Below are positions 1,904-60,348 of a stretch of DNA of 64,000 nucleotides, piece by piece. Numbering within the stretch: position 1 is the first letter of the stretch; each line of letters begins with the position of its first letter. The notes below the pieces were generated by a model. It was not told the origin of the DNA. It saw nothing but the letters and a program-made list of their open reading frames with translations, and searched no databases. Source of the DNA: Tillus elongatus (Eukaryota; Arthropoda; Insecta; Coleoptera; Cleridae); NCBI GenBank assembly GCA_964006375.1, contig OZ023262.1:55627366-55691365 (forward strand), given 5' to 3'. A program made the position numbers and the translations under genes.

Positions 1904-1932
1904 AGTAGGTAATGCGGCACTTTGAGCAGACA

Positions 1933-1957
1933 GTGACGTCACAGGAAGTGACGTCAC
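1933..1957. promoter_or_regulatory. CRE-ETS-CRE cluster in left TIR
   Basis: Two perfect GTGACGTCAC palindromes (1933-1942, 1948-1957) flank AGGAA, together forming CRE/ATF sites around an ETS-type GGAAGTG. The same cluster is mirrored at 12340-12364, and another GTGACGTCAC lies near 2200. Binding is inferred from consensus only. Confidence 0.5.
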
Positions 1958-1958
1958 T

Positions 1959-2143
1959 GGCGCCGGCGCCACGCCCTGGCGCCGGCGCCACGCCCTGGCG
2001 CCGGCGCCACGCCCTGGCGCCTGCCCTGGCGCCGGCGCCTGCCCTGGCGCCTGCCCCAGCGCCTGCCCCGGCGCCTGCCCCGGCCCCGGCGCCTAGCCAC
2101 ACCCCGGCGCCAGCCCCGGCGCCGGCGCCCAGCCACGCCCTGG
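1959..2143. repeat. GC-rich GGCGCC tandem array, left
   Basis: Degenerate tandem units of CTGGCGCCGGCGCC / CACGCC / CTGCC type in an otherwise AT-rich region. GGCGCC is self-complementary, so the array can fold into many hairpins. Open frames across it (Ala-Pro or Gly-Ala-Arg repeats) are composition artefacts. Mirrored at 12147-12339. Confidence 0.85.
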
Positions 2144-2293
2144 GCCAGACAGTCACATCCGTGTTATTCCTAAGGTCATTGACCTGTCTAGGAAACTGTG
2201 ACGTCACACGACTTGGGCCAGACAGTCACATGCAAACATTTCAAAAGTGTCTAACCTATTACTTCAAATTATTATATTTTGAAAAAAACCATT

Positions 2294-2367
2294 TGGTGCA
2301 GGTGAGTTTCGAACCCGGGGCATTCAGATGGGAGGCAACGATGCTACCCGTTGAGCTAAGCAGACGC
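2294..2367 (-). other. tRNA-like sequence inside left TIR
   Basis: The minus strand carries an A-box match (TAGCTCAACGGG), a B-box match (GGTTCGAAACT) about 43 nt further on, a CTCCCAT stretch resembling a tRNA-Gly(CCC) anticodon loop, and an encoded 3' CACCA. Acceptor and anticodon stems pair only partly, so this is unlikely to be a working tRNA. A pol III promoter, a tRNA-derived (SINE-like) relic or a structural mimic is more likely. An identical copy sits in the right TIR at 11919-11992. Confidence 0.6.
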
Positions 2368-2699
2368 TTATTAATTTATTGTTTTAGGTTGGTATATATA
2401 TATATACGACTACAAACAAACCATACATGTAATAGAATTAAAGTTTATTATTAGACAAATGGATGATTTACAAAATAATGTTTAATATTAGAGGCGGAAC
2501 CAAAACGGAAGAACCAAAATGGCGGAATGAAAGATGGAAGCCTGTGATACCTTAAGCTGACATTATAAAAAATGGCGGCTTTCTTTCTTAAAGATGGTGC
2601 CTTTCGCTGATAAAGATGGTTGAAGACTTATTTAAAAATAACACACAGAGGTCGTTAGCAAACAAAAGAAGGAAGTTCAGAAACATACTGTAGGGGGCC

Positions 2700-3143
2700 C
2701 CTTGATGGGTAAATGGTATTCGTGTTTGAGCTTGTCTAGAATACAGCCATTAGAAGTATGACATCATCCACAAACCTGTTCCACAAACCTGTTTGAGTTT
2801 TGTCTGTACGGTTGTTATCTAGTGTAATTTCCGTTGAATGACATCACCCCATTATTTGTGTTTAAACTTGTCTGTGTATCTGTTTAATATACGCAAGAGA
2901 GAGGCCCGCTTAGGGTAAATAACGTGTCAGTTGATGACTTTGGTGAATGTTATCTTGTGTTATATCTGTTCAATCACCCCATTACTCGTGTTTGAGCTTG
3001 TCTAGTACAAACCGAAAGGATGACATCATCCATGTAAATTGTTCACTACACACTGTTAAACTCATTCAAAATTTAGTTATCGTAGAGGTAAGACGTGCTT
3101 CAGTTAACTCTAACGTATCCAAGTGCTCAGTAGTGTGTTTAAA
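2700..3143. promoter_or_regulatory. upstream region of KilA-N gene with degenerate direct repeats
   Basis: No gene. Three imperfect copies of a segment reading CGTGTTTGAGCTTGTCT (near 2720, 2860 and 2988) are spaced about 130 bp apart, two of them followed by ATGACATCATCC. A TCAGT initiator-like sequence lies at 3127-3131, just before the KilA-N ATG. The region is likely promoter or enhancer for the rightward gene. Confidence 0.4.
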
Positions 3144-4082
3144 ATGGCTACATTAAATGATGTGTGCTACCAGCAAATTAAAGACAACTTCTGGTATGGT
3201 TTATTTGCAGACTTTCAATTAATTATTGATAAAAACACTGGTTATTTTAATGCGACTAAGCTGTGTAAAGATGGTGAGAAAAGATTCAGACATTGGTTGG
3301 AAAATAAGAAAACTAAAGAGTTGATTACCTATTACAACGGTCAGGCGAAGAAACATTTAGGTAGCCAGAATACCGATTACCTTAATATTTCAACCGAAGA
3401 TGTCCACTTAGAGTCACATCTAGGGGGCCGGAATTCCGGCCCCCTAGATGTGCTGGAAGCAACATCTCAACTAACACCTACAACCGCTACATACTTGGTG
3501 GACTTTGGTGGAACACAGACTGAAAACAACTTGATATCTGGTACATATGTCTGTAAAGATTTGATATTAAATTTGGCTTGTTGGATATCCAATAGTTTCT
3601 ATGAAAAGTGCAACCAAATTATTTTTGATTTTTTCGTAAGTGAATTTAATCAAAAATACAAGGATAACCTCAAAGAAATTGAAGTGAAATTAATGGAGAT
3701 AGATCATGAAGTGCAGCGTATGCGAGAAACAAATGCTAAAATCACAGAACATTTAGAAGATATATCTCCAAAACCAAGCAACCCTGGAAAACTTTGTGTT
3801 TTTGGTTTGCTTTCAAGAAATGAGAAGGATACTACCTATCCATATCATGCTGTAAGGACTCAGAAGAAAAGTTTTAAAAGAGCTGTCAAGAACTTTAAAA
3901 ATAAACACCCTGATTCCGAAGTAGTTTTAAACATGTTGTATGATCCAAATTCTGTAAATCTCTTTAACAGAATAAAGACCGAAGTCGAATACCTCAAGGC
4001 GAAGAGAAACGATCTACAGATAGCAGATGTACCTCAGGAGAAGTTTATTCAGGATATTATTGATTTACGATATAAATTGTAA
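3144..4082 (+). CDS. KilA-N / MSV199-type DNA-binding protein
   Basis: A 312-residue protein. An N-terminal KilA-N-type domain covers roughly residues 16-165 (WYGLFADFQLIID..TGYFNATKLCKDG..FRHWLENKKT, then ISGTYVCKDLILNLACWIS). A coiled coil follows at about 170-205. The C-terminal domain (216-312) resembles the DUF3627-type tail found with MSV199/KilA-N in iridoviruses and poxviruses (LCVFGLLSRNEKDTTYPYHAVRTQKKS). Such proteins are nuclear or virosome DNA-binding factors of large DNA viruses. The frame is open from a GTG at 3123, but ATG at 3144 is chosen as the eukaryotic start. An unusual 38-bp perfect palindrome encodes residues 91-103 inside the KilA-N domain, probably an insertion. It is the only gene on the left rightward arm and may be the early regulator; that role is inferred. 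Confidence 0.85.
   Translation: MATLNDVCYQQIKDNFWYGLFADFQLIIDKNTGYFNATKLCKDGEKRFRHWLENKKTKELITYYNGQAKKHLGSQNTDYLNISTEDVHLESHLGGRNSGPLDVLEATSQLTPTTATYLVDFGGTQTENNLISGTYVCKDLILNLACWISNSFYEKCNQIIFDFFVSEFNQKYKDNLKEIEVKLMEIDHEVQRMRETNAKITEHLEDISPKPSNPGKLCVFGLLSRNEKDTTYPYHAVRTQKKSFKRAVKNFKNKHPDSEVVLNMLYDPNSVNLFNRIKTEVEYLKAKRNDLQIADVPQEKFIQDIIDLRYKL
3415..3452. repeat. 38-bp perfect palindrome inside the KilA-N gene
   Basis: Two 19-bp arms meet with no spacer at the central GAATTC of GGCCGGAATTCCGGCC. The sequence stays in frame, encoding residues 91-103 between the two halves of the KilA-N domain. It is much more GC-rich than the gene around it. Confidence 0.9.
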
Positions 4083-4192
4083 TTGTTCACTTAGCTTAAT
4101 TGTATGTAACCAGATGAAAAAATAAAATAACATTATTTTAATTAAAGACTTTTATTTTATTCTAAGTACATTAATACATTAAATATATAAGC
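4083..4192. terminator. convergent polyadenylation region
   Basis: Between the stops of the KilA-N gene (+) and the chromodomain ORF (-). AATAAA occurs on the plus strand near 4121, and on the minus strand (TTTATTTT on plus) near 4150-4160, giving each transcript its own signal within 110 bp. Confidence 0.55.
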
Positions 4193-4318
4193 TTATTTAA
4201 CATCATCTGAATTTATCCAAGAATTCTGAGATTTATCAAAACCCAGCCATTTTACATAGAGCTGCTTGCCTTTCTTCCTCAAGATGCGTTCAACCAGATA
4301 GATGTCTGTTTGTTTCAT
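4193..4318 (-). CDS. free-standing 41-residue chromodomain peptide
   Basis: A short ORF from ATG at 4318 to TAA at 4193-4195. It encodes 41 residues with a chromodomain pattern: YLVERIL (strand 1), a basic RKKGKQ turn, LYVKWLGF (the YxVKWxG strand that supplies aromatic-cage residues) and SQNSWINSDDV (the NSWxxxxDV element). This matches the short chromodomain at the C-terminus of Polinton and LTR-retrotransposon integrases, which guides integration to modified histones. Here no integrase core precedes it: the upstream DNA is the fibre-like gene in another frame, and the ATG overlaps that gene's stop (ATGA). It may be the last remnant of a lost integrase or a separate tethering peptide. The small size lowers certainty that it is translated, but the match is distinctive. 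Confidence 0.72.
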   Translation of the reverse strand: MKQTDIYLVERILRKKGKQLYVKWLGFDKSQNSWINSDDVK

Positions 4319-4764
4319 GGCGATGTTGGATTTAAAAGTATCCACTTATCATGTAAATCTTTTAGTTTGCTGTCTATTTCTCCCAGCTTATTCTTTAGCT
4401 TATTATTCTTTAATACATCAACATCTTTTAAAACTTGAGCAGTTATGTTCTTAGCTAAAATTTTCAATTTATTTTCAAATTCGTTTTTTAAATCTTCCAA
4501 CTCAGGTTTGTGTACAGCTTCAAGTAGTATGGCAATGATTCTTTGTGTTACCTCATCTTTGTTCTTCTGATAGTCGTCTATCCATACATCAACAAATTTT
4601 TTATTTACACCATCTGTTGCATCGACTGGATCAGCTATGTTACACAATCTATGGCTTTGCAAATCAAAATCACCACTAGTAGTTCTTGGGAAAATCTCTC
4701 TTTCAATAATTTTAAACTTAGAACCTTTATTGGATTGGGAACGTCCGAACTTATCGATAGACAT
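4315..4764 (-). CDS. tail-fibre-like / trimeric coiled-coil attachment protein
   Basis: A 149-residue protein starting at ATG 4764 (MSIDKFGRS). Residues 32-59 contain DFDLQSHRL followed by NIADPVDATDGVNKKFVD, the classic phage tail-fibre repeat (NxADPxDxxDAVNKKYVD). Residues 60-149 are charged and predicted coiled coil (EDLKNEFENKLKILAK, LGEIDSKLKDLHDKW). A fibre or shaft with a coiled-coil stalk is the likely role; there is no obvious globular receptor-binding head, so it may act with another protein or be a short fibre. An in-frame TTG extends the frame to 4830, but the MSIDKFGRS start is supported by the usual N-terminus of this family. The stop overlaps the ATG of the chromodomain ORF, and the gene lies 50 bp downstream of the conserved protein on the same strand. 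Confidence 0.7.
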   Translation of the reverse strand: MSIDKFGRSQSNKGSKFKIIEREIFPRTTSGDFDLQSHRLCNIADPVDATDGVNKKFVDVWIDDYQKNKDEVTQRIIAILLEAVHKPELEDLKNEFENKLKILAKNITAQVLKDVDVLKNNKLKNKLGEIDSKLKDLHDKWILLNPTSP

Positions 4765-4813
4765 TTTTATACTAAGCACTAAGGTAGGTATATCTTTGAT
4801 ATATGTAGGTATA

Positions 4814-5965
4814 CTAGGCGATAACACCAACCTCCTTCAGTTCTTCAATGATTGACTGAATTTCATTGTTATGAGCATTATTACCAGCAGCCTGGGAAGC
4901 TACTAAAAGTCTAAGTCTATCAACCAGCTCATTTATGTCATCCCAATAGACATATTCTATTTGTTTGTTATTTTGTAGCATATAGTTGTTAGTGTTGCTG
5001 CTTACATTCTGAGCTCTAGGTTCAGTTTTTTGTTCTGCGTTATGATGTGTGTCGTAACCAAATCCTTGAGGAGTTGAGGATCTACGACCTCGTGGATTTA
5101 TCACCGGTTTTATTAGAGTCAGGTACTTTTCAGAGGAACAACCCTTGGTTCGTGCGTTAGGATCATAGTTCATTTTATGCACACTAGTTGCTTCTAGAAT
5201 ATCTCTATAGTGTTGAAGATCGTCATAGGTATACCCTCTAGGTGTTTTCATAAATATCAATTCTAGCAGACCTTGTGTTTGCGGATATCTCCGTTGACCT
5301 AGTCGAATGTCATTATCAGTAAAATCCAAGTGTTTATTGCCAAGACTCCAGCTACCGGTATCTTTAGCGTAGCGAGCACCATACGTTTGATCAATGGTAG
5401 CGAGCCTTGGTGGTTCAGTAAAATACTTGTCTACATAATATCGAACTCGTTCAGGATATTGCTCCAAAAATTCTTGATATGCAGGGTTGGATGTGACAGT
5501 TTGTAGATCTGCCTCAAGCTCTTCAAATGTTGGGATATCCTCATCGGAACTTGTCTCCTCAGCCTCTTCCCTAGGTTCAGCTTCAAAAACTTCATGGTCT
5601 TTAAGGAACTGTACTTGGGGTTTCGTTTCTGGTACCACTTCTTCTTTGATTTGTTCAGCCTTTGGTTGTTGCTGGGGCTGCTGCTGCTGCTGTGCTGCTG
5701 TGTTTTTAGATATTTCACTTAGGGGCTCAACAAGTGGTTTATATAAACGTTGCAGAGCATCATCATTCTCGGCTCTGTTAAGTTTAAGCATTAAATGTTT
5801 TTTTCGAATATTGTCAGCAAGTTGTAAAATCCTTTTCTTAACTTTTCGCTCTTCCTTACCCAACACTTCCATTGTGCTACAACTGGTCGGTATTACCAGC
5901 TGGTCTAATAATTTGTTTGAGCGATACAGGTTGTGTGGTGGTTTAACATATACTGACTCCTTCAT
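4814..5965 (-). CDS. conserved uncharacterised Polinton-associated protein
   Basis: A 383-residue protein from ATG 5965 (MKESVYVKPPHNLYRS); a GTG eight codons upstream is open but not used as start here. Residues 36-75 are basic and helical (GKEERKVKKRILQLADNIRKK). A Q-rich stretch follows at about 92-100, then an acidic linker (EAEETSSDEDIPTFEELE). The second half is the conserved part, with LLELIFMKTPRGYTYDDLQHY and a C-terminal block YVYWDDINELVDRLRLLVAS..GNNAHNNEIQSIIEEL. I recognise this C-terminal block from uncharacterised proteins linked to virus-like elements in invertebrate genomes, but I know of no assigned function. The acidic and basic composition would suit a scaffold or DNA-associated virion protein; that is inference. 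It lies in a minus-strand run with the packaging ATPase. Confidence 0.65.
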   Translation of the reverse strand: MKESVYVKPPHNLYRSNKLLDQLVIPTSCSTMEVLGKEERKVKKRILQLADNIRKKHLMLKLNRAENDDALQRLYKPLVEPLSEISKNTAAQQQQQPQQQPKAEQIKEEVVPETKPQVQFLKDHEVFEAEPREEAEETSSDEDIPTFEELEADLQTVTSNPAYQEFLEQYPERVRYYVDKYFTEPPRLATIDQTYGARYAKDTGSWSLGNKHLDFTDNDIRLGQRRYPQTQGLLELIFMKTPRGYTYDDLQHYRDILEATSVHKMNYDPNARTKGCSSEKYLTLIKPVINPRGRRSSTPQGFGYDTHHNAEQKTEPRAQNVSSNTNNYMLQNNKQIEYVYWDDINELVDRLRLLVASQAAGNNAHNNEIQSIIEELKEVGVIA

Positions 5966-6003
5966 GGTACATGCCTTCTTATTTATCACGATGTCTGGCT
6001 GTC

Positions 6004-6160
6004 TTGTTAGACAGCTGTGTTAGACAGCTGTGTTAGACAGCTGTGTTAGACAGCTGTGTTAGACAGCTGTGTTAGACAGCTGTATGACAGCTGTATGACA
6101 GCTGTGTTAGACACTTGTATGACATCTGTGTTAGACACCTGTGTTAGACAGCTGACTGTC
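6004..6160. repeat. 13-bp tandem repeat with CAGCTG core
   Basis: About eleven units of GTTAGACAGCTGT, the first six near perfect and the rest degenerate (TATGACAGCTG, TTAGACACTTG). Each has a palindromic E-box (CAGCTG). The array fills the gap between the end of the ATPase gene and the start of the conserved protein gene, so it may be that gene's promoter or a replication-related site. Confidence 0.85.
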
Positions 6161-6177
6161 CTGTCTATCATCGTTTG

Positions 6178-6873
6178 TTAGAATAATATATATCTATCGA
6201 ATCCTTTTCTATATCGACCTTTGTGTACATCGTTTTCCTTCACAATCACCAACACACCATACTTATTATCTTTCCAGCATTGGTGGCAGATAGTTTTAAA
6301 TTGTTTAAAGTCCATATCGGTGGTCACATGATCGTCGTACACATGTTTTAAATTGGTTTCATCTTGCTTGAATAACACAATAACATTGGTGTTGTCACGT
6401 ACCAGATGTTTGGGTATTCGTGTATATGTTTGACAGAGATAGAATGAATCAATATTCTTATGTCTGCCCATACTGAAGTATGCTCTTATTTTATCTTGTT
6501 TGTCACAAGCTACATCATCAAATATAAACACAGAGTTGTCCTTGGCATCTTCCGGATCTAATATTTCATCGTTTTCTCGATAAGGATAGTAACCAACACC
6601 TTTTGTGGCATTCATCACCTCCTTTAACATCTTGTATTTCGGTTGATACAGAGACTTTGAATACACATACACGTTATCAAATTTTAAACCGTTTGCTTCA
6701 AACAACAAACTCAGCATGACATTAGTTTTACCACACCCACTGGGACCACATATGATACAGCGAACGGTGTTTGGAAAGAGAGGACCATGCCTCAGTTGTT
6801 GTTGAGCTGTGTCCGTAACAACATCGTCTATATTTGTAATGGGTAAGGCAGAAGCGTGTTTGCTGGTACGCAT
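6178..6873 (-). CDS. A32/FtsK-HerA-type genome packaging ATPase
   Basis: A 231-residue P-loop ATPase. Walker A is GPSGCGKT at residues 43-50, Walker B is SVFIFDD at 114-120, and the polar sensor segment is YLCQTYTRIPKHLVRDN (Q148). The tail VTTDMDFKQFKTICHQCW is typical of the Polinton/poxvirus A32 family. The enzyme pumps viral DNA into preformed capsids. Length and motif order fit the family, and all catalytic residues are present. The gene starts at ATG 6873 and is read leftward, back to back with the capsid operon-like run that starts at 7032. It is the clearest sign that the element is or was able to make virions. Confidence 0.92.
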   Translation of the reverse strand: MRTSKHASALPITNIDDVVTDTAQQQLRHGPLFPNTVRCIICGPSGCGKTNVMLSLLFEANGLKFDNVYVYSKSLYQPKYKMLKEVMNATKGVGYYPYRENDEILDPEDAKDNSVFIFDDVACDKQDKIRAYFSMGRHKNIDSFYLCQTYTRIPKHLVRDNTNVIVLFKQDETNLKHVYDDHVTTDMDFKQFKTICHQCWKDNKYGVLVIVKENDVHKGRYRKGFDRYILF

Positions 6874-7031
6874 CTTAACTTAAACTAAACTATATTTTAT
6901 TTGGGTGTGTATATATATGAATGCAAGTGAGACACCCAGTCAGTATGCATGTTGGTGTCACAGAGTGAGGGCTGTTATTAACAAAGACAGATACAGGTTT
7001 TGCTGAAACGTTGCGGGGCGTTACAAACACC
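6874..7031. promoter_or_regulatory. divergent promoter between ATPase and capsid genes
   Basis: For the rightward genes, TATATATA at 6910-6917 lies 32 bp upstream of a TCAGT initiator (A at 6942), the ideal spacing for arthropod pol II, giving an ~90-nt leader before the ATG at 7032. For the leftward ATPase, AAATATAG read on the minus strand (about 6890-6897) could serve as a weak TATA, but it is very close to the ATG at 6873. Confidence 0.55.
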
Positions 7032-7544
7032 ATGAAAGTTAACAGAAAACTTAATGAGGGGTTTTATGTAATCAACTCGAAGCCAAAAAAGAAGGTTCCC
7101 TTTAAAAACATACTAAGTCTGATTGAGGAAGTTATAAAAGATAGAAATCTTATTCCAACAGCGAACGCCGTATTTGATATAGCTCATACAATCGTTAGAA
7201 ACATTGGTGGGCGTAAGAATGTGCAGAAACCTCGAGTTATTCCAATACCTAAAAGTGGAGGCTTCCTTCCGCTGTTGCCTCTGATATTTGGTGGGCTGTC
7301 AGCACTAGGAGCTCTGGGTGGTGGTGCTGCAGGTATTGCCAAAGCCGTGAACGATGCCAAGTCTGCGAAACAGAAACTAGAGGAGGAAGAACGGCACAAC
7401 AAAACAATGGAAGCCATCGCGATGGGTAGGAGAGGGAGTGGCTTGAAATTTAAGCCAAAATGCAAGAGACTGGGCACAGGCATGTATCTCAAGAAACAGC
7501 GCTCCGGTTATGGGTTGTATCTGCAGAAACCAAAAAACGAGTAA
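7032..7544 (+). CDS. minor capsid protein (GYGLYL-type, adenovirus pVI/pX-like)
   Basis: A 170-residue basic protein from ATG 7032; the frame is open from a TTG at 7011, which is not a likely start. A basic N-terminal half is followed by a Gly/Ala/Leu-rich membrane-active-looking segment at about 77-107 (GGFLPLLPLIFGGLSALGAL, GGGAAGIAKAV), a charged helix (KQKLEEEERHNKTMEAIAM) and a C-terminus with repeated glycine-tyrosine motifs (GTGMYL, SGYGLYL). This layout is typical of the minor capsid or core protein that accompanies the ATPase, protease and hexon in Polintons and adintoviruses. The repeated G-x-G sites are candidates for maturation cleavage by the adenain-like protease encoded next. 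The last 85 bp overlap the protease frame. Confidence 0.7.
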   Translation: MKVNRKLNEGFYVINSKPKKKVPFKNILSLIEEVIKDRNLIPTANAVFDIAHTIVRNIGGRKNVQKPRVIPIPKSGGFLPLLPLIFGGLSALGALGGGAAGIAKAVNDAKSAKQKLEEEERHNKTMEAIAMGRRGSGLKFKPKCKRLGTGMYLKKQRSGYGLYLQKPKNE

Positions 7545-7912
7545 GATGTTTACCAGCAAGACCTCTAACAAATGAAGACCTTGTGAAATTTGCTGGTAAA
7601 ATGAAAATTCCATATTTTAGAGGTGTATACATGCGAGATACTTTGCCATCGAATGGGCCACGCAAGAATGAATCACTTATCATGAATTTGCAAACAAACA
7701 AGGAACCTGGCAGTCATTGGGTTGCAGTTAAGAAACGTGGTGACACAGCCGTGTACTTTGACTCATATGGAAACTTGAAACCACCAGTTGAGCTGCAGCG
7801 TTACCTTAAAAACTCTACTTTAATGTACAATCATGATGTGTATCAGAAATATAATACTTATAATTGTGGTCACTTATGTTTAAAATTTTTAAATAAAAGC
7901 CTTAAACAGTAG
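7460..7912 (+). CDS. adenain-like cysteine maturation protease
   Basis: A 150-residue frame. The conserved domain starts near residue 36 (PLTNEDLVKFAGKMKIPYFRGVYMRD), and the catalytic pattern is clear: His86 in GSHWVAV, Asp101 in YFDSYGN, and Cys136 in NCGHLC, matching the His-Asp/Glu-Cys order of adenovirus protease and Polinton homologues. It processes precursor capsid proteins during virion maturation. The start is uncertain: the only in-frame ATG upstream of the domain is at 7460, inside the minor-capsid gene and in another frame, while the next (7603) would cut into the domain. Either the overlap is real, or leaky scanning, splicing or an unrecognised start is used. An AATAAA lies at 7892-7897 inside the gene. 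Confidence 0.85.
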   Translation: MQETGHRHVSQETALRLWVVSAETKKRVRCLPARPLTNEDLVKFAGKMKIPYFRGVYMRDTLPSNGPRKNESLIMNLQTNKEPGSHWVAVKKRGDTAVYFDSYGNLKPPVELQRYLKNSTLMYNHDVYQKYNTYNCGHLCLKFLNKSLKQ

Positions 7913-7928
7913 CCTGTGTGTATCAGTC

Positions 7929-8639
7929 ATGGCGCACACCTTTGTGTTGAAAGACCGCAGCTCCCATCTGTCGTCAGACTACCATCCACCAATTGTTTTG
8001 GATGGTAATTATGCTGTTGCCTTGATAGGCTTTCACACCTACAACAACATACCCAACATCTATGAAGGTAAAAACAAATTTCATGTAAAAGAAGGAACCG
8101 GTTGGCGAACCATCACGATACCCACCGGTGCTTATGAAATAACACACTTGGAAGAGTTACTTCAAAATGAACTTGTTGGTGCTACAGCAACACACGAACA
8201 AAAGCAACAGGCTCTGCTTCTGAGACCTAATCCGAACACCATCAAATGTAGACTAAAGTGTTATACAAATGTCAGTTTTGAATTTGATGGTTCGATTGGG
8301 CGAATGTTGGGCTTTTCAAAACAAGTTCTTCAGCCGGACACCTTTTATGAATCTGATTTACCTGTTGATATAGTGGATGTTAGACAGATTCGCATCGAAA
8401 CCAATATTGTGTCTGGTTCCTATTATAACGGACAACCCTCACATACGCTGTATGAGTTTGCTCCGATGGTTGATCCTGGCTACGCAATCGACATAGAACC
8501 TAACAATTTAATTTACTTGCCGGTGAACAAGCAAGAGATTTCCAATATAAGTATCGACATCGTCGACCAAGATTCAGTTCCTGTCAACTTTCAAGGTGAA
8601 GAGGTGTCTGTTCGCTTAAAACTTATAAAAGTTGCTTAG
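7929..8639 (+). CDS. penton-like minor capsid protein
   Basis: A 236-residue protein from ATG 7929, 16 bp after the protease stop. It is beta-rich with few charged helices, and contains LDGNYAVALIGFHTYNNIPNI, GWRTITIPTGAYEITHLEELLQNEL and LPVDIVDVRQIRIETNI..SYYNGQPSHTLYEF. Size, composition, and position between protease and major capsid fit the single-jelly-roll penton protein of Polinton-like viruses, which fills the capsid vertices. I recognise the family by layout and style rather than by a catalytic motif. It could carry the attachment surface together with the fibre-like protein. Confidence 0.7.
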   Translation: MAHTFVLKDRSSHLSSDYHPPIVLDGNYAVALIGFHTYNNIPNIYEGKNKFHVKEGTGWRTITIPTGAYEITHLEELLQNELVGATATHEQKQQALLLRPNPNTIKCRLKCYTNVSFEFDGSIGRMLGFSKQVLQPDTFYESDLPVDIVDVRQIRIETNIVSGSYYNGQPSHTLYEFAPMVDPGYAIDIEPNNLIYLPVNKQEISNISIDIVDQDSVPVNFQGEEVSVRLKLIKVA

Positions 8640-8640
8640 T

Positions 8641-8802
8641 ATGTTGGTCTTCAAGGATATAAAATCAAGTGCATCTACCACATCAAATTCAGTTGAGTCA
8701 GACACGTCAAAGGGTACGCTTCGTCCCGATAATATTGAGTTCCTGCAAAGCCTGGGTTATCATGTCGTCAAAACTAGAAATATTCAAAGAACCCGTGTTT
8801 GA
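8641..8802 (+). CDS. small conserved ORF upstream of major capsid
   Basis: A 53-residue frame opening with ATG at 8641, one base after the penton stop codon, and ending at TGA 8800-8802. It overlaps the first 41 bp of the major capsid gene in another frame. It contains a Ser/Thr-rich N-terminal half and the segment RPDNIEFLQSLGYHVV. A short xxNxEFLxSLGxxV-type peptide before the hexon gene is something I associate with Polinton-like elements, so I think it is real. Function is unknown; a small virion or assembly peptide is possible. Confidence 0.5.
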   Translation: MLVFKDIKSSASTTSNSVESDTSKGTLRPDNIEFLQSLGYHVVKTRNIQRTRV

Positions 8803-9967
8803 TGATGGCATCGATCGAGAAGAGCTGCGTTCTTACTATTCACCAACTAAATCGTTTGGTAACAGCGATGAAATTGAAATAGCCATCAACCAACAAGATG
8901 CGTTCGTATGTCTGGCCGAGTCAGCTCTAATAATCGAAGGTGCTCTGGAACCTGTAGCAATCCAAAATGCCACTGGTGCTTGTTATCTGTCAAATAATGG
9001 AGGAGCAGCTCTGTTTGAATCAATGACCTATGAGTTAAATAACAAGGAAGTGGAACGAGTGCGAGACCCATACACCACAACCATCATCAAAAGTCTGCTA
9101 TCGTTCAGTAAGAATGAAGCCCAATCTCTTAGCAACGCCGGTCTGAATGTGTCGTCGGAGCACATCACCTTAAATGATAACAAGTTTCACATGCTCATAC
9201 CTGTCTGGTTCCTCTTCAGTTTCTTTCATCATTTCAAAGGAGTTCTCTGTGGCAAACATACTTTCCGCTTTACAAGAAGTCGAAACGATTCCAACGGCTA
9301 TTACAGCACAGGTACGGCACGAGCAAAAATTACCGTAACCAATATGTTTTTAAAGGTAAAACATGTATTTCCCAATGATAAAATGAAATTGGAACTGATG
9401 GATAAAATAGCCAAAGACACCTCTATATTTCTCGCATACCGTAAATGGGACATATACGAGTTACCAGCACTCAGAGATATCAACAGAGATGTGTGGGCTG
9501 TTAAAACTGCAACCAACTTGGAAAGACCTCGATATGTGATTATAGCATTTCAAACAGATCGTAAGGATAACGTGAAGAAGAGGTCAGACTATTTCGATAA
9601 CATTGGTATGTTGGACCTCAGAGTGTTTCTAAATTCAGAATGCTACCCTTATGAATCTATGAATATGGATTTTGAGAAATCGAAATATGCAGAAGCCTAT
9701 AACATGTATACAGATTTTCAAAAAAGCTTCTGTTATAAAAACATGTCGGAGCCTATCTTGAATTATGACGAGTTTAAAGACAGAGCTCTATTTGTGATTG
9801 ACTGTCAGTACCAGAACGAGTCAATCAAGTCTTCAACGGTGGACATTAAGGTGGAGTTTATGAGTCACGCCAACTTCCCAAAAAATACTCGTGTTTATTG
9901 TCTGGTTATTCATGACAGTGTAATGGAATATAAACCTCTAACGGGTATCGTTAGAGCCATTATGTAA
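8762..9967 (+). CDS. major capsid protein, double-jelly-roll type
   Basis: A 401-residue protein from ATG 8762 (MSSKLEIFKEPVF); an in-frame GTG at 8669 is ignored. Recognisable blocks are EIEIAINQQDAFVCLAESAL, ALFESMTYELNNKEVERVRD, HMLIPVWFLFSFF, FRFTRSRNDSNGYY, DVWAVKTATNLERPRYVIIA followed by FQTDRK, LDLRVFLNSECYPYESMNMD, and IKSSTVDIKVEF near the end. Two beta-rich halves are consistent with the double-jelly-roll hexon fold that builds icosahedral shells of Polintons, adintoviruses and virophages. The sequence belongs to the short (about 400-residue) arthropod-associated group rather than the longer Polinton hexons. Its 5' end overlaps the small ORF by 41 bp. Confidence 0.8.
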   Translation: MSSKLEIFKEPVFDDGIDREELRSYYSPTKSFGNSDEIEIAINQQDAFVCLAESALIIEGALEPVAIQNATGACYLSNNGGAALFESMTYELNNKEVERVRDPYTTTIIKSLLSFSKNEAQSLSNAGLNVSSEHITLNDNKFHMLIPVWFLFSFFHHFKGVLCGKHTFRFTRSRNDSNGYYSTGTARAKITVTNMFLKVKHVFPNDKMKLELMDKIAKDTSIFLAYRKWDIYELPALRDINRDVWAVKTATNLERPRYVIIAFQTDRKDNVKKRSDYFDNIGMLDLRVFLNSECYPYESMNMDFEKSKYAEAYNMYTDFQKSFCYKNMSEPILNYDEFKDRALFVIDCQYQNESIKSSTVDIKVEFMSHANFPKNTRVYCLVIHDSVMEYKPLTGIVRAIM

Positions 9968-10027
9968 TAATAGTATGTCATTTATGTATGTCATTTATGT
10001 ATCAATATGTACAACTTAATTAATCCT

Positions 10028-10033
10028 AATAAA
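10028..10033 (+). terminator. polyadenylation signal after major capsid gene
   Basis: AATAAA 61 bp after the capsid stop codon, followed by a T-rich stretch (TTTTTATTG). It probably ends the rightward capsid transcripts. Confidence 0.6.
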
Positions 10034-10470
10034 TTTTTATTGTATGTAAATCAGTTGTTTTATTTTTATTTTGTTGCATTTTTATTAACCCCTTTCTGTA
10101 AGGTTAACAACTGTAAAAAACGTTGTTTATCCTTTGTAAGACCCCCTCTCTCTTACATCAGTTTGTTTCCTCAATACAAGAGAGAGAGACACTTGTTCAG
10201 TATGTGTTAAGTCGTGAAACAAGGATGACGTGTCTTGCTGTATGTAAGTACACTCTTCTTATTATGTCTGTTTGTATTCAAATAACAAATACAAACATAA
10301 CCTTACTAACAATTGGATGGCAGGGTAATCAGCCTGTACAAGAGAGTGTGTGTTGGTTTTAGGTGTTAATACAGCTTGTTCTAACTTACTTAAATATTAT
10401 ATTTCTTCTGTTCAACAAGACGATTATTTTGATGTGTCACACATGTATGTAGCTCTAAGAATAGCTATAC
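10034..10470. other. non-coding stretch inside the element
   Basis: No convincing gene; short frames here lack conserved motifs. It contains a CTCTCTCT/AGAGAGAG inverted pair (about 10145 and 10181), which could form a hairpin. Confidence 0.5.
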
Positions 10471-11660
10471 CGGAAGTGTCTACCGGAAGTAACATTTTTA
10501 TTGAATATGCTTATAGAGTTTGCTTTGCTGAACAGCGTGTATGTATTGATTCTATCGTACATCTCACGGATCTTCCGCGATAAGGGTTTGAAGTTTTTTA
10601 TCTCAGTTTCTTGTAGACCTTGTTACGAAACATACATTTTTGAAGTCGGTTCCTTTCTATCACTTTCCATTGAAAAGATATAACGATTTAAAGTTTTAGA
10701 CCGGAAGTGGCCATTTTATTGTATATTCCAATTTGATTTGGCCTCCTTAACACCGTGCATGTATTGGTTCCAGCGTACATCTCACGGATCTTCCGCGATA
10801 AGGGTTTAAAGTTTTTTATCTCAGTTTCTTGTAGATCTTGTTACGAAACATACATTTCTGAAGATAGTTCCTTTCTATCACTTGTCGTTGAAAAGATACA
10901 AGGATTTAAAGTTTAGACCGGAAGTGGCCATTTTATTGTATATTCCAATTTGATTTGGCCTCCTTAACACCGTGCATGTGTTGGTTCTCTCGTACATCTC
11001 ACGGATCTTCCGCGATAAGGGTTTAAAGTTTTTTATCTCATTTTCTTGTAGAGCTTGTTACGAAACATACATTTTTGAAGTCGGTTCCTTTCTATCACTT
11101 GTCGTTGAAAAGATATAACGATTTAAAGTTTAGACCGGAAGTGGCCATTTTATTGTATATCCCAATTTGATTTGGCCTCCTTAACACCGTGCATGTGTTG
11201 GTTCCATCGTACATCTCACGGATCTTCCGCGATAAGGGTTTAAAGTTTTTTATCTCATTTTCTTGTAGAGCTTGTTATGAAACGATATATTTTTAAAGTC
11301 AGTTCATTTCTATCACTTGTCGTTGAAAAGATATAACGATTTAAAGTTTAGACCGGAAGTGGCCATTTTATTGTATATTCCAATTTGATTTGGCCTCCTT
11401 AATACCGTGCATGTATTGGTTCCTGCGTACGTCTCACGGATCTTCCGCGATAAGGGTTTAAAGTTTTTTATCTCAGTTTCTTGTAGACCTTGTTATGAAA
11501 CATACATTTTTTAAAGTCAGTTCATTTCTATCACTTGTCCTTCAAAAGATATAACGATTTAAAGTTTAGACCGGAAGTGGCCATTTTATTGTATATTCCA
11601 ATTTGATTTGGCCTCCTTAACACCGTGCATGTATTGGTTCCATCGTACATCTCACGGTTG
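10470..11660. repeat. 217-218 bp tandem repeat array
   Basis: Five full units, marked by CTCACGGATCTTCCGCGATA at 10563, 10781, 10998, 11215 and 11433, then a sixth partial start at 11651. A decayed half unit precedes the first. Each unit holds ACCGGAAGTGGCCATTTT, that is an ETS consensus (CCGGAAGTG) next to a YY1-like site, plus the small palindrome TTCCGCGATAAGGG. The array abuts the right TIR and has no coding capacity. It could be an enhancer, homologous-region or replication-origin structure. Confidence 0.9.
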
Positions 11661-11918
11661 AACCTGTTGTCTATTTTGTTTCTGAACTTCCTTCTCTTTA
11701 AGAAAGAAAGCCGCCATTTTTATAATGTCAGCTTAAGGTATCACAGGCTTCCATCTTTCATTCCGCCATTTTGGTTCTTCCGTTTTGGTTCCGCCTCTAA
11801 TATTAAACATTATTTTGTAAATCATCCATTTGTCTAATAATAAACTTTAATTATGTTACATGTATGGTTTGTTTGTAGTCGTATATATATATACCAACCT
11901 AAAACAATAAATTAATAA

Positions 11919-11992
11919 GCGTCTGCTTAGCTCAACGGGTAGCATCGTTGCCTCCCATCTGAATGCCCCGGGTTCGAAACTCACCTGCACCA
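11919..11992 (+). other. tRNA-like sequence inside right TIR
   Basis: Same sequence as 2294-2367 in opposite orientation: A box at 11928-11939, B box at 11971-11981, terminal CACCA at 11988-11992. Both copies would be transcribed towards the element's end. Confidence 0.6.
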
Positions 11993-12146
11993 AATGGTTT
12001 TTTTCAAAATATAATAATTTGAAGTAATAGGTTAGACACTTTGAAATGTTTGCATGTGACTGTCTGGCCCAAGTCGTGTGACGTCACAGTTTCCTAGACA
12101 GGTCAATGACCTTAGAATGCAGAATAACACGGATGTGACTGTCTGG

Positions 12147-12339
12147 CCCAGGGCGTGGCTGGGCGCCGGGGCTGGCGCAGGGGCTTGGCGCCGGGGGCCG
12201 GGGCGTGGCTAGGCGCCGGGACCGGCGCCGGGGCAGGCGCCAGGGCAGGCGCCAGTGCAGGCGCCGGCGCCAGGGCGTGGCTAGGCGCCGGCGCCAGGGC
12301 AGGCGCCAGGGCGTGGCGCCAGGGCGTGGCGCCGGCGCC
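12147..12339. repeat. GC-rich GGCGCC tandem array, right
   Basis: Mirror of the left array (1959-2143) but with a different number and order of units, as expected of a slippage-prone repeat. Confidence 0.85.
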
Positions 12340-12364
12340 GTGACGTCACTTCCTGTGACGTCAC
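12340..12364. promoter_or_regulatory. CRE-ETS-CRE cluster in right TIR
   Basis: GTGACGTCAC at 12340-12349 and 12355-12364 flanking TTCCT; mirror of 1933-1957. Confidence 0.5.
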
Positions 12365-12393
12365 TGTCTGCTCAAAGTGCCGCATTACCTACT

Positions 12394-12399
12394 CTTTCC
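12394..12399. repeat. 6-bp target-site duplication, right copy
   Basis: CTTTCC, identical to 1898-1903. Confidence 0.88.
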
Positions 12400-27652: not shown

Positions 27653-28750
27653 CTATATTTCGCTCAACAAATCCAGCCTCCTGCAGAGGTCGATAATCTT
27701 TGTGGGCGAAAGTTGATCCAGTTCTTCTAGAGCAAGCTTTACCTTGCCAAAGAGCAGGTATCTAGTCCTGTCCGCTGCGGGACAGTAACACGGCACGTGC
27801 TCTGCTGTTTCTTCATTCTCCATACACAGCCGGCACTCTGTCTCCTGACCGACCCCAATGCGGTGCATGTGGTGCCGCAAGCGGCAGTGTCCTGTATACA
27901 GACTGACTAGAGTACTCAGTTGTTGTCTGTTCATCTCTAGAAGTTTTTTAGCCCTTGACTCAGACAGGTCATTTATGAAGGCCTTAGAGTGAGCTAATCC
28001 TGGAATATTTTGCCGATATTGGATTGTCATTCTTTCTGTCCAAGTCTTTAAGGTGCGTTTTGTTGTGCAAGATGTTATCCCCAGCACCGGTTCTGGTCCA
28101 ACAAAGTCACTCTGGGCCCCACTCCTGGCAAGCGCGTCGGCCGCAACGTTGCCGTCATGGTCCGAGTGACCCGGTATCCAGACCAGCGACACCTCATTAC
28201 AGCTGCTGAATTCGTTAAGGGCAGATTTACAACTCCATACCGTCTTTGAATTACACCGGTAGGAACCAAGAGCCTTTATTGCAGCTTGGCTATCTGCATA
28301 TATCTTTATCGATTTGTGTGTATCCAGGTTTTTTAAACTTTCCCTTGCACACATCTCGATGGCATATACTTCTGCCTGGTGTATGGTTGTAGCTGATAGT
28401 CTAGCATCAGTGCTGCCCCCATATACGCCAGCTCCTACTCCCAAATTGGTTTTGGAGCCGTCAGAGTACCAGCAGAGGTCCGCTCTCAACATAGTCGTTT
28501 GATTTCGGTCCCAGTCCTCCCTTTCCGGGAGGACGATCTTGAAAGACAGATCTCTGCTGTTCCTTGTAGGCATCAAATCTGAGACCATTCCCAGAATCCC
28601 GTGACCATCAATGTCATCAAGGAGTCCGGATCCTCCCAGACTGACTTCCTTCGGCATGCTGTCTGCCGTTTGCTTTAGTCTGTACGTTGTCCACCTCGCC
28701 ACCCTCTCCATATATCCATCATATGTGAAGAGGGGGAATTTTCCGGCCCT
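27653..28750 (-). pseudogene. LINE 3' part: RNase H domain and zinc-binding tail, 5' truncated
   Basis: A long open frame on the minus strand. The first ~12 codons (from 28783) are flanking DNA. RNase H residues are all present: Asp108 in WYSDGSK, Glu138 in HQAEVYA, Asp164 in YADSQAA, and His206 and Asp216 in IPGHSDHDGNVAADALA. It ends with a Cys-His cluster (CRLCMENEETAEHVPCYCP). RNase H in this position is typical of I/LOA-type LINEs. Reverse transcriptase and endonuclease are missing, as expected for 5' truncation on insertion. The frame is unbroken, so insertion is fairly recent. 3' UTR-like sequence continues to about 27560. Confidence 0.85.
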
Positions 28751-29487
28751 ACAACTATTAACTAATAAATAAATAAAACACATTAATTTTTATTGTGATT
28801 GTCTTTATTCACAGTTATTTAGTATACACAACACTGCCTTAGCAAATAATGAAATCATCACAAATCTTCATTGACAAACACAGCGTTATTGAATCATAAT
28901 AGTAGATATTTAATAAAACTGCAAGCAAGGGATTAAAAACCTGGATTGTCTGTAAAATGTATCAGAAGCTATTTATAATTTTCATTATTATATGCACAGT
29001 CAAATTTTTTTCTTGTGTCCACTTATTTACACATATAAGCATAGGTACTTACAAAGAGATCTATTTATGTATTATAATATTGTAAAGGTAGATACTAAAA
29101 GGAACTTAAAACAATGTTAAAACCTTATATATCAACATTACATTATTTACAGTGGTTTAATTTAATAAAAATCTATGTACAAAAATAATTACCTATAACA
29201 ATTTAATCAGCATTTTTAGTTTGTTATGTAAGGTATGTCTCAAAAGGAATGAAGGCGCAACTGTCAAGTTAAAAATGGCAAATTGAGCCAATCAATTGAT
29301 GAAGCTTTGTTATATTTAGAAAAGTATGATCCTGCAGTAGTTTAAATATAACTCAGAGTGTTGGTTTCCTTTCTGTGGGCGATGAATCCTTTGTTTTTTA
29401 ACGAATTTCCATTAAGAAAATTTTGCTTATAGAGAGCCAAAAACTTTCTAATTATTGACTTTTTTTTTCAAACGAGCATGTACAAAG
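28751..29487. other. intergenic, no gene seen
   Basis: AT-rich; nothing recognised. Confidence 0.5.
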
Positions 29488-35106: not shown

Positions 35107-35268
35107 ATGGCGGCGATCGGAAGTATGTCGGAATACAATAACGGAGAAGACTTCAGCGTGTACGAAGAAAAACTATCCCAATATTGTAAGGCAAACAAGG
35201 TCGACAGCGATCTCAAAGTAGCCATGTTAATTAGCCTTATAGGTACACATAGGTATAGGTACATATAA
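35107..35268 (+). pseudogene. gypsy gag N-terminal part, cut off by frameshift
   Basis: From ATG 35107 the frame encodes a typical gag start (NNGEDFSVYEEKLSQYCKAN, then DSDLKVAMLISLIGT) and stops at TAA 35266-35268. Gag continues in another frame immediately downstream. The cause is a 16-bp insertion at 35248-35263 that repeats the neighbouring AGGTACA-type sequence. Confidence 0.85.
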
Positions 35269-35269
35269 A

Positions 35270-38200
35270 GTGCTACGAGATTTATGTTTCCCTACCTTGC
35301 CACAGGATAAAACATACGATGAACTATGTGCAATCCTAAAAAAGCAATTCAGCCTGCCAATCAACGTTTTCAGGGAAAGAATAGCGTTCTTTAAAGCTCA
35401 GCAAGTCAGTCACGAATCCTGTTGTGAGTGGTACGCGAGAATTAAGCGTTTGGCATCAAGTTGTAAGTTTGAACACTTAGTTGATACCCTGCGTGACAAA
35501 TTCATTTGTGGCATGTTACCTGGACCAGTATTGGATCGTCTTGTAGAAGAGTCCCACACAAGGAAGATGGAAGAACTTCTAGAAATCGCCGTAGCCAGAG
35601 AAGCAACCATCTTAAATTCGTCCGAAAATTCAAATTCGGTCAACGCCAACAATGGAATCCATTATTACGGAAATCGGAAACAAGAGTCAGCGCCATCAAG
35701 TTCGAACTACAATTCAACGCATGACTGTAGCGGCGCCTCCAAACGTCAACTTCAAACGAACCAAAGATTTGACAACAACAATGGCGGACGAGAGCGACAA
35801 CAGCAGGATCACAGGAAAATGAAGTGTTCAACTTGTGGGAAAAAACACTTTGGCGAGTGTAAGTACGCCAATTACCGTTGTGTGAAGTGCGGTAAGATAG
35901 GACATCTGGTAAGTGTATGTAAAAACTCTAATAAGATGACCGTTAATAATGTTGATTATGAACAGGTCTCAGAAAATGAACTTCCAATTTGTAATTTAGA
36001 TATGTTCAGTTCAATTTCAGGCCCTATGCTAATTGCAGTTAAGTTAAATAATAAGACATTTTCTTTGGAGCTAGATTCGGGTTCTGCAGTATCAACTTTA
36101 AAATATGACTGTTTTAAGAAAAATTTCAATCATATTCCCCTCCACAATACAACCTTAACTTTTAAAGGTTACACTGGTGAGATGATTTTACCTGAAGGTT
36201 TTGTCAATCTCAAGGTAGAATATTTAAATAAGAGTGTAGTAATGAAATTTTTCGTAGTTAAAAATGCAACCACTGGTTTGCTAGGCCGTTATTTTATTTG
36301 TAAATTTAATTTGACACTAGTCCCTTCTATAAACTCGACCTGTATAAGCGAGTTAAAAGAGACATTGATCAAGCAGTTTCCAGAAGTTTTTGATGGAAAA
36401 TTAGGGTGTTTTAAGTATGCAAAGATAAGCTTACATCTAAAGCCTGATGCGGTTCCGCATCATCATAAGCCCAAACCTGTCCCATTAGCGTTACAGCACA
36501 AAATTGAACACAAGTTAAACCGCATGGAGAGCAACGGTATCATAACTCCCGTTATTTCTAGCCCCTGGTCATCATACACAGTACCTGTAATGCGTAAAAA
36601 TGGAACAATACGTATTTGTGGCAGCTATATTAAATTAAACAAACAGCTAGAGTCATACTACTATCCATTGCCAAGCATTGATAGTCTCTTTGCAAAACTG
36701 CATGGTTGCATTAAATTTTCAAAAATTGATCTAAGCGACGCTTACATGCAGTTTCAGCTAGATGAGAAATCAAAATGTTTAGCAACTATATCTACGCATA
36801 AAGGACTGTATATGATGAATCGGATGCCCTTTGGAATTAAGTGTGCAAGTTTTTATTTTCAAAAGTATATTGACCAGTTGTTCCAAGGAACAAACAACAT
36901 ATTTACATTTCAAGATGATATCTTAATTGGGCATCGGGAGCATGACAACCATTTAAAAGTACTTCAAAGCGTATTCAAAATATTGTCTGAAGCAGGACTA
37001 AAGGTGAATATTGAAAAATGTAAATTTTTTGAAGACAAGGTATCTTATTTGGGGTTTGTTTTGTCTAAAGAAGGCATTTCCAAATGTGAAACCAAAATTC
37101 GAGCCATCAAAGATGCTCCTAAACCAACAAATCTCACACAATTAAAGTCGTTTTTGGGTTTAGTTAATTTTTATTCGAGATATATACCTTTAGCTCATTT
37201 AGCTGCTCCGTTATATAAGCTTTTAAAGAAGAACTCTCAATTCCACTGGTCTTCGGAATGTGAGAAAGCGTTTAGGCATATAAAAAGTCTGTTGTCATCT
37301 GATCAAGTACTGGCATACTTTGATCCGAAGTTACCAATCTTTGTAACAACGGATGCATCTGAAAACGGCATTGCAGCAGTCCTAACTCATAGGATGCATG
37401 ACGGATCAGAAAAAATGGTCGCATGTGTCTCACGCACATACAGCAAAGCTGAACAAAACTATGCCACAGTACACAAAGAAAGTCTTGCGTGTTACTATGG
37501 TGTAAGGAAATTTGAGCAATACCTGTATGGTGTGAAGTTCACACTTCGCACTGATCAAAAAGCACTTGTTTCTATTTTGAGCAATAAGAAAGACACTAAT
37601 CAGACATGTGCAAATCGTTTAAAAAGGTATGCCTTATACCTGTCTAATTTTGACTACGAAGTGGTTCACATAAGCGGAAATCAAAATATTATTGCGGACT
37701 GTTTGTCAAGGTTGCCAGTTTCTGAATCTCTGCCAGAAGACACAGACTGGGAAGACCGTATCTATTTTATGGACTTCATGGATCATACACCAATAAGTAA
37801 CCAAACGGTAAAAACCCACACCGAAAATGATAGCATTCTACAAACCGTGATTCGTTGTGTGAAAAGTAATTGGCCTCGGGATATTATATCAGATTTGAAA
37901 CCATTCTTTCACCGAAAACATCATTTGAATGTGATCAACAAATGTTTATTTTGGGGAGATAGAATAGTTATTCCTACCTCATTGCAGTCGTTAGTGCTAA
38001 GAGAACTGCACAATACTCACCAAGGGGTAGTGAGAATGAAATCTCTAGCCAGGCAGTATATGTGGTTTCCTGGGATTGATAAAAGAATCGAGAACTTAGT
38101 TGCATCATGCACAAAGTGTTTACAGACACGTGCAGATCCACCGAAGCAATCAGTTCCCTGGCCCTTAGCCCAAAAGCCATTTGAGACTGTACACATAGAC

Positions 38201-58907: not shown

Positions 58908-59742
<835 letters not shown>

Positions 59743-60348
59743 ATGAGTGGAATAACGATAGAAAAAACTAAATATGAGTGTGCTGCATTACCTAAGCGAT
59801 GGCAAAGAGAAGACGTATTAAGAAAAACTGGCATATCTGTTGGTAAAGTTGATGTAATGTATTACAGTCGGGGTGTTCGCAATGATGCATCTCTTGTGCC
59901 ACCCATCAGACAAACGGCATCAATATTCAAACAACCCGTGACCGTTTACAAAACACAAGAAAGTAAAGTAAAATCAGATTATAAAAGTGGCAATCAAGAG
60001 AAGCCCAAACAGTTGATATGGGAGAAACGACTCGAGGGTCTTCGAGCTTGTGATATCGATGGAACTGAGTTCGATGCAATGGAACTTCCCAGAGGTCTCA
60101 AACCAGTGGGTCCAAATGTGAATGAAGAGACCATTATACAGAGTGTTGCTACAGCATTGCACGTGTCTACACAGCCTGTGACTGGACAGACAGGTGTGAA
60201 AACGAACCTGGAGAAGAATCCGGGTGTGTTTTTAGATCCAAAACAGCCTCTTGTACAGAATGTTAACATATCGGAAGATGATATTAGGAGGCAAGAAGAG
60301 CGAGTTGCTGCTGCTAGACGAAAATTACAAGAGGCATTGAAAATGTGA
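59743..60348 (+). CDS. MBD2/3: MBD2/3-like NuRD subunit, intronless, MBD shortened
   Basis: A 201-residue protein from ATG 59743. Residues 11-42 match the start of a methyl-CpG-binding domain (ECAALPKRWQREDVLRKTGI, then GKVDVMYYS). The sequence then passes straight to the post-MBD region (RGVRNDASLVPPIRQTASIF), skipping the second half of the MBD (the KKFRSKPQL-type segment). Residues 85-165 are the MBD2/3 C-terminal domain (LIWEKRLEGLRACDI; GLKPVGPNVNEETIIQSVAT; LEKNPGVF). Residues 176-200 are the coiled coil (SEDDIRRQEERVAAARRKLQ) that binds p66/GATAD2 in NuRD. The frame is intact without introns, and AATAAA lies at 60446. This suggests a retrocopy of a spliced mRNA, perhaps of the short insect isoform that lacks this exon, or a genuine single-exon gene. 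Without the full MBD it should not bind methylated DNA but could still bind NuRD partners. Confidence 0.88.
   Translation: MSGITIEKTKYECAALPKRWQREDVLRKTGISVGKVDVMYYSRGVRNDASLVPPIRQTASIFKQPVTVYKTQESKVKSDYKSGNQEKPKQLIWEKRLEGLRACDIDGTEFDAMELPRGLKPVGPNVNEETIIQSVATALHVSTQPVTGQTGVKTNLEKNPGVFLDPKQPLVQNVNISEDDIRRQEERVAAARRKLQEALKM

Follow-up and report, generated by a model that had tools for sequence, protein, structure and literature searches.

The DNA analysed here (the window, 64,000 nucleotides) is C1:55627366-55691365 of the 1.72-Gb, 30-contig assembly of the beetle Tillus elongatus (GCA_964006375.1; C1 is contig OZ023262.1). The unit under study, element A, occupies positions 1904-12393 of the window (10,490 bp) and is one of several element types that have their ends in common. 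Its features, in window coordinates, are the following.

1898-1903: left target-site duplication, CTTTCC, read directly
1904-2594 (+): left terminal inverted repeat, perfect over its outer 54 bp and with a GC-rich 12-bp minisatellite inside
3144-4082 (+): KilA-N and DUF3627 protein, 312 amino acids (aa), Pfam 8.7e-24 and 3.6e-20
4193-4309 (-): C-terminal 39 codons (chromodomain) left over from a Polinton-type integrase, not themselves a gene; 64% identical to integrase L069 (tblastn 2e-13)
4315-4764 (-): fibre-like open reading frame (ORF), 149 aa, weak T7 tail-fibre match under Pfam's cut-off
4814-5965 (-): 383-aa ORF, no match
5990-6167: 13-bp tandem repeats between two genes
6178-6873 (-): A32/FtsK-type packaging ATPase, 231 aa, Pfam Pox_A32 6.1e-9
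7032-7544 (+): 170-aa ORF, presumed minor virion protein by its position, no Pfam family
7460-7912 (+): C48/adenain-type maturation protease, 150 aa, Pfam Peptidase_C48 1.4e-4, just above the cut-off
7929-8639 (+): 236-aa ORF, penton candidate by position, nothing useful from Pfam
8762-9967 (+): double-jelly-roll major capsid protein, 401 aa, Pfam PF21738 1.7e-76
10415-11732: subterminal tandem repeat, six copies of 217-218 bp, common to element B (below) at 90-97%
11695-12393 (-): right terminal inverted repeat
12394-12399: right target-site duplication, CTTTCC, read directly

Element A is bounded by two Polinton features, long terminal inverted repeats (TIRs; arms of 691 and 699 nt aligned, 92.4% identity) and a 6-bp target-site duplication, and the first-pass annotation of this DNA, which described 0.69-kb TIRs and a perfect duplication, was right on both counts. 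The two arms mirror each other without a mismatch over the outermost 54 bp, and inner stretches of 76-177 nt are 99-100% identical, the GC-rich minisatellite in between being the part that differs. AG...CT ends with 6-bp duplications are the mark of Polintons/Mavericks (Eupolintoviridae), and A resembles these elements in both respects as well as in possessing an A32-type packaging ATPase, a C48-type protease (with a weak match) and a double-jelly-roll capsid protein together. It differs from them in having no detected PolB or integrase and in its length of 10.5 kb. Usual Polintons measure 15-20 kb according to the available portion of PMC4028283, which agrees with the earlier description of A as markedly smaller.

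All eight ORFs of A run intact from ATG to stop, as had been stated for the virion genes. The same annotation credited A with a full assembly set, of which the ATPase, the capsid and, weakly, the protease are recognised by Pfam. The remaining two names follow gene order, without support from Pfam: the 170-aa ORF is one that we take to be the minor capsid protein, and the 236-aa ORF presumably the penton. Upstream of another capsid family lies a homologue of the 236-aa ORF, at 65% over 63 aa and 36% over 116 aa, and a structure prediction for it returned a confidence score (pLDDT, predicted local distance difference test) of 35, which makes the fold model unusable.

The polymerase and the integrase were sought with Pfam between 2150 and 12200, in the 91 stop-to-stop ORFs that reach 40 aa or more, a scan that genes split into exons of less than 40 aa would escape. 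None of the 91 matched PolB or the rve integrase core, both expected of a Polinton, and this profile search, of the kind that had been proposed, showed no cryptic spliced polymerase among ORFs of this size. The earlier statement that neither enzyme is encoded in any frame is upheld, within the reach of the scan, for PolB and for the rve core, but it overlooked the 39-codon integrase remnant, across which Pfam places a chromodomain (Chromo 2.3e-6; window 4196-4345, minus strand). Integrase L069 is an open frame from this same genome (rve 3.7e-11; Chromo 0.005, the latter under the cut-off), and 40 nt at 4314-4353, the end of the fibre-like ORF of A, are 92.5% identical to the DNA just upstream of its start. 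Since the chromodomain remnant is still present, the integrase would have been lost by deletion; an ancestor of A probably had this gene behind the fibre-like gene and lost all of it except the tail.

Copies of A, and an element with matching ends that carries a polymerase

The exact 39-bp end of A occurs 447 times in the genome (223 and 224 by orientation) and a reversed control pattern 0 times, so that these matches exceed chance. The capsid protein of A has at least 103 genome matches, and 103 of the 103 listed are free of stops, in a list that is ranked by score and hence favours intact copies. Seven other loci of A, compared over 4.2 kb each, are 98.8-99.9% identical to the window copy. 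The predicted ends of six other copies were fetched; four have both ends, each with a 6-bp duplication of its own, and two have one end. With the window copy counted, five of five copies seen at both ends carry their own duplication. These duplications and the near-identity of the loci point to recent mobility, and A has been recently amplified by insertion. The very high copy number would also suit a host-used or dead viral fossil multiplied by genome duplication; the separate duplications and the high identity over 4.2 kb argue for recent mobility, and we consider such an origin barely credible.

Capsid copies L001-L008 differ at 7 synonymous and 0 nonsynonymous segregating sites, a count that cannot serve as a selection test because the search ranks by protein identity. 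Listed PolB genes (here and below, the best 77 scored of 809 candidates) lie within 25 kb of 0 of the 31 listed A copies on C1, and listed integrases of the L069 kind lie within 12 kb of none of them.

The first-pass annotation had proposed searching the host assembly for a larger partner with the same TIRs. One such element is B, a clean insertion of 18,600 bp at C4:44305075-44323674 with GTCATC on both sides. The outer 54 bp of A and B are 100% identical and the inner arm 95% over 388 nt; the 217-218-bp tandem repeat, which sits at the right end only in A, stands at both ends in B. Beyond the ends and this repeat, A taken in 500-bp pieces has no match in B, and its proteins (P0001-P0008) have no homologue in the sequence fetched from B (L019/L020). 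The PolB frame of B, fetched in these two pieces, was recognised by Pfam at 1.8e-21 and 2.8e-21. A further stretch, past a repeat-filled gap, shows a YDTDS motif by eye and no Pfam match, and on this ground the gene likely contains an intron. The alignment suggests that this PolB is adintovirus-like, which is a reading by eye rather than a test. No capsid, ATPase, protease or integrase was found in B among 36 of the 65 small ORFs listed outside its main genes and the last PolB stretch, a scan that left out the other 29 (mostly in the terminal repeats) and frames overlapping the main genes. Two other PolB loci, on C7 and C10, largely follow the plan of B and match it at 93-99%; on C7 the 5' part of PolB is 87% identical.

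A and B therefore carry different genes between common ends, as the parts of a segmented virus would. It had been foreseen that A might prove a simple deletion copy of an element with PolB and integrase between the same TIRs; B has the ends and PolB but no coding DNA in common with A, and a recent deletion of B is ruled out as the source of A. Element B also encodes a matrixin with a hemopexin domain, that is, a matrix metalloproteinase inside a Polinton-type element (1.4e-28, L020:7279-8961). The C7 copy has this gene and the C10 copy has it in part; it is possibly a captured host gene.

Other elements between the same ends

The first 100 listed of the 447 ends (90 on C1, 10 on C2) form 42 pairs, with 16 C1 ends unpaired. 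Six pairs span less than 9 kb, four 9-10.2 kb, 14 span 10.2-11.5 kb, six 11.5-18.2 kb and 12 span 18.2-19.2 kb. Listed A capsid matches fall in 15 of the 42, namely 11 of the 14 at 10.2-11.5 kb, three of the six at 11.5-18.2 kb and one of the six below 9 kb. Another capsid family, MCP3, is found in nine pairs: eight of the 12 at 18.2-19.2 kb, which we call type F, and one of 16.9 kb. A listed PolB is present in one of the 42, again at 18.2-19.2 kb, and a listed capsid and a listed PolB occur together in none.

Fourteen probes were compared. Twelve lie in six 18-kb pairs: two match B (at the right only), eight match one another and define F, one is F-like (L057) and one has no match (L059). The other two, in pairs of 10.7-10.8 kb, match A and class C (below), the class C match coming from the 10.8-kb pair without a listed capsid. 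Three pairs of 18.2-19.2 kb have neither a listed capsid nor a listed PolB. The two of these that were probed, C1:59203243-59222019 and C1:192474325-192492701, are mosaics between the same ends, with B at the right probe and with F-like sequence or no match at the left. Probe L059 (C1:192479520-192480020) contains a 106-aa ORF within an 18.4-kb element and matches neither A, B nor F, nor any Pfam family. At C1:120454480-120454686 two ends stand 207 bp apart, forming almost an end-only element.

Class C was read in interior stretches of two elements, 9.2 and 10.0 kb long and bounded by these ends, which contain no long intact gene. These interiors consist in part of pieces of A (the KilA-N gene in both orientations, the 3' part of the protease gene and the repeats at 5996-6154) and include an N-terminal PolB piece, which B holds too as a spare copy. 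Inverted KilA-N, protease and PolB fragments are seen in the same-end mosaics at L053 (C1:179545500-179551500) and L054 (C1:113304000-113310000). Class C elements look like defective or satellite derivatives, and their inverted gene pieces could make hairpin RNA against A and B. The 9-10-kb pairs were also considered as an integrase segment and rejected, being a mosaic of A and B fragments with longest listed frames of 145 and 211 aa. The C8 copy of A differs from the window copy at five of 4,203 positions around the capsid gene but at six of 27 in the outermost end, and the end variant of the A copy at C1:259628313 is found on C2 as well, at the end of a B- or C-type element. Near-identical bodies of A are thus joined to differing end variants, so that body and end move independently of each other.

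The mosaics of class C, the existence of pairs of 6.5-8.3 kb and the integrase remnant in A all speak for a third possibility, in which a single element, once complete, gave rise to A as ordinary non-autonomous deletion copies that spread by chance. Such an origin accords poorly with the eight remaining genes of the window copy, all of which are open, and with the stop-free state of all 103 listed capsid copies, even in a score-ranked list that favours intact ones. Furthermore, the A elements make up a separate size class, and the PolB carrier B has no coding sequence in common with it. We therefore judge this origin improbable.

Element F (~18.8 kb; for example C1:282872949-282891777) has the ends of A and the capsid protein MCP3, and only two stretches of 0.5 kb were read in it. 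Over 166 aa, MCP3 and the capsid protein of A are 41-43% identical, which rules out A as a recent deletion of F; MCP3 is ~71% identical to one copy of the MCP2 family. Pfam recognises it at 3.3e-31, and it has at least 150 genome matches, of which 149 of the 150 listed, ranked by score, are stop-free. F might be a complete adintovirus that encodes capsid, PolB and integrase itself, and A a satellite that has a separate capsid set but uses the enzymes of F, much as a virophage does with a larger virus. The open MCP3 frames, the prevalence of F among 18-kb elements bounded by the exact 39-bp end (8 of 12 pairs) and the divergence of the two capsids are consistent with this relationship. In contrast, the 31 listed MCP3 copies on C1 all lack a listed PolB in the surrounding 20 kb, and if the ends of F were as long as those of B there would be scant room for a PolB gene of B's length. 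We regard a satellite of F as possible, if somewhat unlikely.

Further families of capsid, integrase and polymerase are present. In score-ranked lists, MCP2 has at least 138 matches (135 of the 138 listed stop-free) and the rve/chromodomain integrase at least 124 (119 of the 124 listed stop-free). Of the 138 listed MCP2 copies, 49 lie on C1, C3 and C4. Listed integrases are found less than 12 kb from 36 of these 49, at a median spacing of 5,343 bp, and listed PolB genes less than 25 kb from none. Two PolB families are near-perfect palindromes with PolB in both arms, one with 6.87-kb arms at 99.8% and one with 7.5-kb arms at 99.6%; palindromic loci are L035/L036 (C2:60858532-60877073) and L037/L038 (C6:128643472-128659350). 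A genome-wide search with PF00665 was uninformative, the best 150 scored of 11563 candidates including many in frames of ~1,180 aa as in long terminal repeat (LTR) elements. The suggestion that A represents a distinct small lineage is too narrow, as A is one of several element types (B, F, class C) with common ends.

Elsewhere in the window, 59671-60348 (+) encodes a single-frame MBD2/3 protein (MBD_C 2.7e-35, MBDa 3e-26, MBD 3.1e-9), a sign of an animal host, 35243-39190 (+) a 1,315-aa frame that resembles an LTR retroelement polyprotein by eye, and 27653-28789 (-) a frame with RNase H (6e-12). An open frame in a fetched locus, L025:945-1700, matches NADH:quinone oxidoreductase (Proton_antipo_M, 1.5e-50) and is perhaps a nuclear copy of mitochondrial DNA.

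Proposed supply of replication and integration in trans

We read A as a recently amplified virion element for which replication and integration would be supplied in trans, and which is possibly part of a split-genome virus; we give this reading a probability of roughly 0.55. That A depends on a helper in one form or the other, as a satellite or within a split genome, is highly probable. The genes of A would supply capsid, protease and packaging ATPase, and A would persist because other elements have the same ends and one or more of them (B, as shown here) carry PolB. PolB made elsewhere would prime on the ends of A, an integrase made elsewhere, putatively by MCP2 or F elements, would insert it with the 6-bp duplication, and the capsids of A could package DNA with these ends and so serve the whole set. 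The functions of one virus would then be spread over elements that complement one another in trans, the ends being common cis signals that are exchanged between elements. The first-pass annotation had described an element that packages itself and borrows replication and integration; this fits the missing PolB and integrase and the existence of B, with the borrowing itself being what we infer.

Several points weigh against this reading. Packaging and the trans-supply by B and by integrase elements are predicted from sequence, and the lack of a PolB near A is a weak argument, given that the list holds the best 77 of 809. PolB with exactly these ends is rare (one of 42 pairs, plus B on C4), and the two other 18-kb pairs that match B do so at the right probe only and are mosaics, not plain B. 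F, probed at two places, could hold both PolB and integrase; the integrase that was found belongs to MCP2 elements, whose ends were outside the sequence seen; and the genome contains further PolB families.

The nature of F decides between the two forms of dependence: should F prove complete, A would be a satellite, and otherwise the genome would be split. In the latter case the set would be a segmented, integrating, double-jelly-roll double-stranded (ds) DNA virus of an animal, in which A and F are capsid segments, B supplies the polymerase and a further segment probably bears the integrase, all with common ends and many insertions. Its segments would exchange ends and halves, and class C elements would be defective mosaic riders. 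This proposal is a tentative one, and we hold it to be doubtful.

Relation to known systems

Polintons are described as self-synthesising, with polymerase, integrase and often capsid in one element. In the genome studied here, capsid and polymerase sit in separate elements that have common ends, and the capsid kinds are present in many recent, open copies. Virophages and the satellites among Polinton-like viruses are small, have their own capsid and depend on another replicating element; A differs from these in that the helper it presumably uses is no giant virus but another element of its own kind, with matching ends. Nine Polintons without capsid, protease and ATPase genes together are reported in the available portion of PMC4028283, and B resembles these. 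The present case differs in that capsid-less and capsid-only kinds share ends in one genome, and in that B has no integrase found and carries a matrix metalloproteinase.

The defining trait of adintoviruses, according to the accessible part of PMC11071296, is a single genome that contains PolB, hexon and integrase. The PolB type of B as read from the alignment, the MCP2-element integrase with its C-terminal chromodomain (0.005, under the cut-off) and the virion gene set are all reminiscent of them, but A has the hexon-type capsid only and not PolB, hexon and chromodomain integrase together. The same part of that source describes bidnaviruses as having a genome distributed over segments (up to twelve in some) and a PolB of the adintovirus class. 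Their capsid is parvovirus-like and their DNA single-stranded. The divided genome and the PolB class are points of likeness, while the units seen here have a double-jelly-roll capsid and are integrated dsDNA. No split-genome Polinton is described in the available portions of the open-access literature searched (including PMC11071296, PMC11071308, PMC12567637, PMC4028283 and PMC6431247), with subscription papers outside the search, and no relative was confirmed in IMG/VR or in a phage collection. The arrangement makes testable the division of Polinton-type genomes into parts, the origin of satellites with their own capsids within one virus group and the possible start of bipartite relatives such as bidnaviruses.

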